Source: Nitrospirota bacterium
GTDB taxonomy: Bacteria; Nitrospirota; Nitrospiria; Nitrospirales; Nitrospiraceae
DNA length: 33,019 bases
Direction of reading: 5' to 3'
NCBI GenBank assembly: GCA_026387615.1
Contig: JAPLLI010000023.1
Coordinates: 1-33,019 of the forward strand
Position numbers and translations under genes: made by a program. The notes beneath the pieces were generated by a model. That model ran no database searches and was not told the DNA's origin. It worked only from the letters and a program-made list of their open reading frames with translations. This document shows positions 6,619-27,848 of the stretch, in pieces. How positions within the stretch are numbered: position 1 is the first letter of the stretch; the number at the start of each line of letters is the position of its first letter.

Positions 6619-6769
6619 GAATCCTAGCCTTCAAGATCTTCTTCCTATTGTCAAATGAAGAGAGGAACTGCGGACGGCTCAAAACGGTCACCTTTCTCAC
6701 CCGCCCGACTTTAGCGCGCGAGACAGGCGGGGCAAGCGAGACGGGGGGCGAGATCAGAAGATCGAGATT

Positions 6770-6818
6770 TTCGGAACTTCGAACCCCGAACGTCGAACCT
6801 CGCACTTCGGATCTCGCC
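6770..6818. repeat. Heptamer array TTCGGAA CTTCGAA CCCCGAA CGTCGAA CCTCGCA CTTCGGA TCTCGCC
   Basis: Seven consecutive in-phase 7-nt units; surrounded by GGCGAGA / TCTCGCC inverted segments. Confidence 0.7.
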
Positions 6819-8721: not shown

Positions 8722-8796
8722 CGTGAAACGTGAAAGGGCTCGAAGAAAAAGCCCTCGACCGTCCCACCTTTCACCTTTGACGGCTTACGTTTCACG
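8722..8796. repeat. Inverted heptamer arrays of CGTGAAA-type units around a GGGCT/AGCCC hairpin
   Basis: Left CGTGAAA x2. Right arm, minus strand: CGTGAAA CGTAAGC CGTCAAA GGTGAAA GGTGGGA. Confidence 0.75.
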
Positions 8797-11660: not shown

Positions 11661-11747
11661 GTGATGAGTGATCAGTGATGGGTGATGAGGCAAGATGAAA
11701 CTGGCTCCTTACCTCGAACGTATCACGCATCACCCATCACGCATCAC
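11661..11747. repeat. Inverted heptamer arrays (GTGATGA)x4 ... (NNATCAC)x4
   Basis: GTGATGA GTGATCA GTGATGG GTGATGA; minus strand GTGATGC GTGATGG GTGATGC GTGATAC. Confidence 0.9.
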
Positions 11748-12746: not shown

Positions 12747-12866
12747 GTGATGAGTAACGAGTGATGGGTGATCAGTTTAAAGAAAGCCAAAAAGATCCCT
12801 CGTTATCGCAGGAGCAATCGTGCCCTGGCACCTCCGTCTCATCACTCATCACCCATCACTGATCAC
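12747..12866. repeat. Inverted heptamer arrays, GTGATGA type
   Basis: GTGATGA GTAACGA GTGATGG GTGATCA; minus strand GTGATCA GTGATGG GTGATGA GTGATGA. Confidence 0.9.
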
Positions 12867-17101: not shown

Positions 17102-17227
17102 GCAGGACGCTGAAAAATACCGTCAGTATCGTTCTCGCCTCAAACGCATCCTCAACGAGCCCAAGGCTACGCCTCCGGTGCGCTCATCGTCTGCGGCCTT
17201 GCTGAACAGGCTTTTTGAGCGTCCTGC
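17102..17227. repeat. Family C palindromic element (reverse orientation)
   Basis: GCAGGACGCTGAAAAA ... CTTTTTGAGCGTCCTGC. Reverse complement contains CAGCAAGGCCGCAGACG, CCGGAGGCGTA, GTTGAGGATGCGTTTGAGGCGAGAACGA. Confidence 0.85.
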
Positions 17228-19444: not shown

Positions 19445-19641
19445 GAGGGTGGCCTGCTTGGCCTCCCACTGCGCGCGTCGAACGGAGGTTGGTTCATCTG
19501 GTCTATCTCGTCTATCAGGTTGGTCTGGTTGGTCGGACCGAAAATTCATTCAGCAGAACCAGATAGACCAGAAAGACCATCCAACAGACAGACGAGCCCG
19601 TGCGCGTTGCGCGAGCACAGGAGCCCGACCGGCCGCCCTCC
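19445..19641. repeat. Family B element containing inverted 9-nt periodic arrays
   Basis: Start module CCTCCCACTGCGCGCGTCGAACGGAGG and end module TGCGCGTTGCGCGAGCACAGGAG; interior TGGTCTATC TCGTCTATC AGGTTGGTC TGGTTGGTC with inverted partner at 19556-19588. Confidence 0.75.
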
Positions 19642-27749: not shown

Positions 27750-27848
27750 GTGATGTGTGATGCGTGACGAGTGATGAGTGAAACGCGCAGAAACCTAGAT
27801 AGCCACTCCCTGTTCCCTGCGCGTCACTGCTCACTCATCACCATTCAC
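27750..27848. repeat. Inverted heptamer arrays, GTGATGA type
   Basis: GTGATGT GTGATGC GTGACGA GTGATGA GTGAAAC; minus strand GTGAATG GTGATGA GTGAGCA GTGACGC; inner stem CGCGCAG/CTGCGCG. Confidence 0.88.

Follow-up and report, generated by a model that had tools for sequence, protein, structure and literature searches.

Opposed heptamer arrays between ispA and hpnA of a Nitrospira genome: a possible copy of a superfamily of short palindromic insertion elements

The window, the whole 33,019-nt stretch of DNA that was analysed, derives from a Nitrospira MAG (2.64 Mb, 281 contigs), and all of its nearest relatives by hpnA are MAGs of Nitrospira or Nitrospirota. The gap between the genes for a polyprenyl synthetase (ispA) and an epimerase-fold protein (hpnA) is filled at 11661–11747 by four GTGATNN units, a 31-nt core, and four inverted units. 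The opposed four-unit arms reported in the first-pass annotation are thus borne out by the sequence.

11661–11688, plus strand: left arm, GTGATGA GTGATCA GTGATGG GTGATGA, read from the sequence
11689–11719, no strand: core of 31 nt, unlike the cores of GTGATNN elements elsewhere (by-eye comparison, 60 paired elements)
11720–11747, minus strand: right arm, GTGATGC GTGATGG GTGATGC GTGATAC, read from the sequence

The left arm is 1 base from the ispA stop codon (11659), and the right arm is 9 nt from the hpnA ATG (11757). The element is predicted to form an RNA hairpin of −36.9 kcal/mol (z −3.86). No T run follows the arms, so the element at 11661–11747 lacks the GC-rich hairpin plus T run expected of an intrinsic terminator. 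No match to Rfam was found anywhere in the window at the gathering score. In the ispA–hpnA gap of N. moscoviensis and of the window's genome, the first three units occur in the same order (GA, CA, GG), indicating that an allele can be stable.

Related repeats lie elsewhere in the window, none of them assigned to a strand.

12747–12866: second GTGATNN element, read from the sequence, in the gap between hpnA and a carotenoid-synthesis gene; arms 12747–12774 and about 12839–12866
27750–27848: third element, GTGATNN/GTGACNN, read from the sequence, upstream of a P-type ATPase gene; arms 27750–27781 and about 27821–27848
8722–8796: GTGAAAC-type element with degenerate arms between two minus-strand genes, seen by eye only and under the lag-7 threshold
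2549–2635: GATGAAC-type paired arrays nested in a larger inverted repeat (2501–2519 / 2648–2666, GCAGGATGCTCAAAAAGCC / GGCTTTTTCAGCATCCTGC)
6770–6809: single CGAACNN array within a 23-nt inverted repeat (6747–6769 / 6796–6818), related, with no clear opposed heptamer pair
19487–19582: related element with 9-nt units of the TCTGGTCTA type; arms 19487–19511 and 19558–19582

Recurrence of the architecture at 12747 and 27750, as GTGATNN pairs, and at 8722, as a degenerate GTGAAAC pair visible by eye only, agrees with the earlier reading. Of the two arrays that it called related, the one at 2549 is a GATGAAC-type pair, but the one at 6770 is one CGAACNN array rather than two opposed heptamer arms. 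The 2549 element sits inside a T5-flanked inverted repeat, and its relation to terminators may differ from that of 11661–11747.

Three other kinds of repeat were noticed alongside. Parallel paired arrays with 9-nt units (GGTCTATCT/GGTTTGTCT, also GCGAGANNN) occur at 19487–19582 and in N. moscoviensis (L141–L160); they form 18 clusters in the gaps of 400 kb of N. moscoviensis and are scattered across the genus. A larger dispersed palindrome, CAGGATGCTGAAAAAG...CTTTTTGAGCATCCTG, with T5 on both strands, occupies 2501–2666 and 17102–17227 and recurs in many relatives, e.g., after hpnA in L028 and L071. It resembles a bidirectional terminator, and its loop sometimes holds heptamer or nonamer arrays (L030, 13852–14059). 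A MITE-like insert, CCCGCATTATTCATGA...TCATGAATAATGCGGG, with an apparent 4-bp CTAG duplication, is found in L071 (6695–6885) and L031 (3393–3594), and the L031 copy contains a GTGAAGC-type heptamer array.

Lag 7 is the sole enriched short lag in the window, with 7 clusters against 0.0 in Markov shuffles. Genes were called with a simple codon-usage caller made for this analysis. In the gaps of the window's own genome, taken from a sample that includes 14 contigs picked for carrying arrays (about 507 kb readable; at least one contig, L015, is N only), lag-7 clusters number 55, compared with 0.3 in shuffles. The intergenic lag-7 excess that the first-pass annotation had staked its reading on is therefore present. 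Lag 9 gives 13 clusters in the same sample, and lags 5, 6, 8, 10, 11, and 12 give 0–2. Unselected contigs of this genome, which provide the fair density, hold 17 lag-7 clusters against 0 in shuffles. The genome contains 17 occurrences of the GTGATGNGTGATNNGTGATNNGTGAT pattern and none of its reversed control. The reversed pattern yields arrays in a few other Nitrospirota genomes (G087, G095, and G254), indicating further heptamer families there.

To describe the anatomy we used 60 paired GTGATNN elements (54 distinct) from the window's genome, N. moscoviensis, and relatives. The units point inward in all 60, and neighbouring arrays form inverted pairs in all 60. Arms have four units in 77 of 108 cases, and the elements are 64–147 nt long, mostly 75–105. 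Positions 1–4 of the unit are nearly fixed, position 5 is T in 86%, and positions 6–7 are free, mostly GA, GG, CA, GC, or CG. Cores and unit order differ among loci in the genus Nitrospira, and the expectation that the core is not conserved between loci held in the by-eye comparison of the 60 elements. Adjacent units carry identical free letters 73 times, where 74.8 are expected, and are thus no more alike than random units, a result that speaks against local duplication and on which tandem duplication was rejected as the origin of the arms. The free letters of opposite arms agree less often than expected by chance (0.179 vs 0.222; 0/2000 within-genome permutations), mainly in the registers that a hairpin would use. 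Neither arm is therefore a copy of the other, and these positions show no covariation between arms; arm copying and gene conversion between arms were rejected on this evidence. The anti-matching likely reflects avoidance of perfect palindromes. The 54 elements are predicted to form RNA hairpins with a mean z of −4.09, and 94% fall below −2.

The two arms of a locus share their motif, as the earlier reading had required. In 76 orthologous gaps, both arms have 4.58 6-mers in common, compared with 1.42 for mismatched pairs (permutation maximum 2.58 in 10,000). In the window's own genome, arm consensuses match at 5.62 of 7 positions, compared with 4.81 (permutation maximum 5.46 in 300). An all-frame stop cassette would account for GTGATNN, which gives TGA in three frames (7 = 1 mod 3), but it is not general, since the CGAACNN, ATGGCNN, and 9-mer families carry no stop.

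Paired elements between codirectional genes begin a median of 1 nt past the stop codon and end a median of 11 nt short of the start codon (n = 21). The first unit sometimes supplies the stop codon of the upstream gene, and some right arms are the N-terminal leader of the next protein, e.g., in L011 (MNEPSNSDHLSPITHHG...). The tight fit between codirectional genes is thus confirmed, but it is not special to them: arrays occupy gap types at near background frequencies, and divergent and convergent gaps hold them too. An operon- or terminator-specific role was rejected on the basis of these frequencies. Among codirectional gaps of 60–149 nt in four sampled genomes, a lag-7 array is present in 22% in the window's genome, 22% in N. 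moscoviensis, 43% in G161 (another Nitrospirota family), and 7% in N. defluvii. Shuffled gaps of this size hold none, and shorter real gaps almost none. The difference between congeners is large: N. moscoviensis has 55 four-unit GTGATNN arrays and N. defluvii has 0, and lag-7 clusters per 400 kb number 21 and 1, respectively.

At the ispA–hpnA site, a lag-7 array is found in 62 of 79 Nitrospira gaps, compared with 1 after shuffling. The word depends on the species (GTGATNN, TGCTGAG, GTGAARC, GGTNAGG, ATGGCNN, GCTGACA, and others), and both arms match. The motif shared by both arms and changing between loci, noted from the window, thus also switches between species at orthologous sites. On the hpnA gene tree, with labels taken from left-arm patterns, the motif label needs about 34 changes, a few of which are labelling artefacts (L025, L058, L082, and L090, labelled "none"). 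The word turns over in the hpnA–crt gap as well, where some species carry other dispersed elements. This gap is empty (0–26 nt) in 13 Nitrospira species, compared with 64 gaps of at least 40 nt, and other insertion/empty-site pairs were also seen.

Where sister species have different motifs, the last 45 nt of their ispA genes diverge too; for example, between L035 and L032, ispA is 67% identical at its end and 94% further upstream. Species with the same motif show excess sharing in the last 45 nt of ispA (0.0225; 0/1000 permutations), and no such excess was found at the start of hpnA (p 0.31). An excess at the ispA end and none at the hpnA start points to replacement of a tract, and recombination with a different allele is a plausible route. 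In a crude, noisy global alignment of the 30-nt cores, species sharing a motif did not differ in core similarity from species with different motifs (p 0.21).

Outside Nitrospira, GTGATNN arrays of other Nitrospirota families, including near-perfect GTGATGC arrays, fall within open reading frames. In distant Nitrospirota, in-frame elements are found in AroC, MurE, UvrA, LeuRS, and a BadF/HgdC-like protein; as read from the sequence, the elements appear to sit in essential genes of these relatives without breaking them. The alignment of G254 AroC with PDB 1q1l falls into two blocks, and an insert of ~23 residues stands in place of 2 in the 1q1l chain. At this site, orthologues of the same family have (ATTCAAA)n, (GGTTCAC)n, a heptamer pair, or almost nothing. 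The AroC loops of L263 and L265 contain single uniform heptamer arrays with no inverted partner where a relative has a two-armed element; these are possible precursors or remnants. In the BadF/HgdC-like protein, five linkers hold different heptamer elements in seven species, many of them two-armed, and a minority of linkers have no array or a C-run/G-run palindrome instead. The in-frame palindromic insert encoding PPLPPFTKGGRGG / PPLNKGG, a C-run/G-run inverted repeat, was seen in BadF linkers of L273, L275, and L276 and in AroC of L245, and it occupies some linkers that heptamer elements use.

One arm is freed of in-frame stops by a change of word, GTGAT to GTAAT or GTTAT. By arithmetic, all three frames of a heptamer array encode one and the same heptapeptide, and this may make the array easier to tolerate. 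In G254, homologous copies of one element with a similar core encode NALSVMRNEL..SRITHHA in several genes. A conserved peptide per family is thus present in G254, whereas in Nitrospira cores and free positions differ between loci. No target-site duplication was seen in the AroC comparison or in the inspected empty-site pairs, a test limited by species-level divergence.

Heptamer repeats have precedents. Cyanobacterial STRRs are degenerate intergenic heptamer arrays in direct tandem, and to our knowledge they have neither matched inverted arms nor per-site motif switching. The elements described here are likewise tandem intergenic heptamers, but they are inverted pairs (60/60) and not direct arrays only. 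TAACTGA heptamers in Beggiatoaceae, cyanobacteria, and Bacteroidetes are intergenic by start codons, often at the SD place; some lie within ORFs, and in some relatives the gap is shorter and shows no evident repeat (PMC4679880). Unlike the Nitrospirota elements, they are direct repeats of a single heptamer, and similar heptamers are rarely repeated (PMC4679880). Cyanobacterial heptamers, proposed in the first-pass annotation as the nearest analogue, give way to the paired and four-heptamer elements of Geobacter metallireducens (PMC2700814). That genome, described in 2009, contains paired opposite-strand 7/8-mer arrays at variable distance, the trait that the Nitrospirota elements share, and four-heptanucleotide elements (Gmet_H4##) within and between genes (PMC2700814). 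The paired arrays were named "global regulator binding sites", classes 1–3, with one consensus per class; binding of the repeats by IHF/HU or a global regulator is a hypothesis of that paper, which also reports a different repeated element in the proBA gap of a sister Geobacter species (PMC2700814). Unlike our analysis, it concerns one genome and describes no cross-species motif turnover, intragenic paired palindromes, or stop-to-start fit (PMC2700814).

REP/REPIN-RAYT, ERIC, and other MITEs are, like the present elements, short, palindromic, and non-autonomous, often beside stop codons. The present elements differ in needing no RAYT, in showing inverted arms with no target duplication seen, and in having arms made of heptamer arrays. 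Closer in habit are the Rickettsia palindromic elements (RPEs), reportedly described by Ogata et al. in 2000 and 2002. RPEs are elements of about 150 bp in ten identified families (PMC10969869). Both systems consist of short palindromic inserts that lie between genes and also in frame in unrelated housekeeping genes, with several families per genome and, among the Nitrospirota in G254, a recurrent peptide within a family; palindromic elements are in frame in genes of other Nitrospirota and between genes in Nitrospira. Unlike RPEs, the Nitrospirota elements have arms of tandem heptamers and lack a family-wide sequence, the family present differs among orthologous sites, and most copies within Nitrospira are intergenic. 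A literature search with the array sequences gave one match, which was unrelated. Heptamer pairs in G. metallireducens (PMC2700814) and TAACTGA arrays near starts (PMC4679880) are thus already known. Among open-licence papers we found no description of motif turnover at orthologous sites with the architecture kept, of the stop-to-start fit, of anti-matching arms, or of in-frame use in Nitrospirota.

Our preferred reading, to which we assign a probability of roughly one half, is that the elements are a superfamily of short imperfect-palindromic insertion elements, RPE-like, tolerated and repeatedly replaced. The ispA–hpnA locus would be one copy. Each arm would comprise about four inward tandem heptamers with five nearly fixed and two free positions, some families using 9-nt units. 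The elements would settle where they are tolerated, from a stop codon to the next ribosome-binding site or start codon, and, when their arms are stop-free in the coding frame, in protein linkers. Tolerance would come either from hairpin folding of the RNA or from translation of the insert into a loop at the protein surface. The family at a site would be replaced repeatedly as species diverge, partly as a tract including the end of the neighbouring gene. The elements would be non-autonomous, saturate tolerant sites, and turn over. We infer that they are mobile or selfish. This reading is supported by the dispersal of the GTGATNN family in one genome and its absence or rarity in the congener N. 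defluvii, by the inward polarity, stop-to-start fit, empty orthologous gaps, and in-frame inserts at shared sites, and by the homologous G254 peptide copies and the same-motif excess at the ispA end. Against it, Nitrospira copies show no recognisable recent common master, as cores and unit order differ, and the architecture is kept while the sequence changes, with identical linkers filled in many species, which suits a selected structure. Also weighing against it, no target-site duplication was seen, no autonomous element or transposase for such insertion was identified, and core similarity was not tied to motif in the crude alignment. More speculatively, and doubtful in our judgement, a sequence-agnostic enzyme or replication-linked process could write inward 7-nt units on both sides of a site de novo, making imperfect palindromes between cistrons as well as protein domains and rewriting them with a new word in a new species, throughout Nitrospirota and beyond.

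As the main rival, the elements would be mRNA hairpins that act between cistrons and between domains whatever their motif. A periodic, imperfect stem would draw the stop and start codons together, acting in translational coupling or ribosome pausing, and would slow the ribosome between protein domains; the sequence would be free provided that the hairpin forms, and motifs would drift and switch. The span from stop codon to start or SD region, the strong predicted hairpins, the survival of the architecture through motif changes in gaps and linkers, and the occupancy of 22–43% of 60–149-nt codirectional gaps in three of four sampled genomes all fit it. We still consider it unlikely: N. defluvii has the same genes and almost no arrays, 13 Nitrospira species do with a tight, empty hpnA–crt gap, divergent and convergent gaps hold arrays as well, the two free positions are unpaired between arms, and a hairpin alone does not require fixed polarity in 60 of 60 elements. 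Local generation is a weaker contender and rather improbable. By that account, a vulnerable site would hold a seed that grows by 7-nt replication slippage, and the inverted arm would be synthesised by hairpin priming or template switching. The uniform single arrays at the AroC site of two relatives, (ATTCAAA)n and (GGTTCAC)n, a two-unit seed (AAAGTTC AAAGTTT) at the same site in other relatives, and the near-perfect GTGATGC arrays of other families look like its products. It sits badly with Nitrospira neighbouring units no more alike than random, with arms less alike at free positions than chance, and with the recurrence of one pentamer at scores of loci with fixed polarity.

Binding proteins and known transposases fare worse. 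By analogy with the proposals for G. metallireducens and for TAACTGA in Beggiatoaceae (PMC2700814, PMC4679880), the arrays could be sites for a DNA- or RNA-binding global regulator or a chromosome-organising protein, and five fixed plus two free positions, fixed polarity, and about four units per arm do resemble arrayed recognition sites. Many unrelated motifs coexist per genome and replace one another at orthologous sites, and in-frame copies in housekeeping proteins are hard to account for, so that we regard regulator sites as very improbable. REP/REPIN elements moved by a Y1 (RAYT) transposase would likewise have two inverted arms around a variable spacer and be mostly intergenic, but each arm here is a tandem array and not a small palindrome. 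The Y1 transposase family PF01797 has no match in the window's genome or in the array-rich relatives G008, G010, G022, and G024, several of which are incomplete MAGs. RAYT mobility is accordingly disfavoured, to the point of being barely credible, and a Y1/RAYT transposase is not required for the elements.

Earlier heptamer repeats, in cyanobacteria, Beggiatoaceae, and Geobacter, left the number seven without explanation. Nitrospirota offer a comparative system in which the same gap and the same linkers can be traced through dozens of species, the word changing and the architecture staying. Slippage, arm copying, and classical transposition can be told apart as causes in this comparison, which also supplies exact empty sites. 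If selfish, the elements would be an RPE-like invader outside Rickettsiales that rewrites operon gaps and housekeeping proteins. If functional, they would be a sequence-free signal between folding units.
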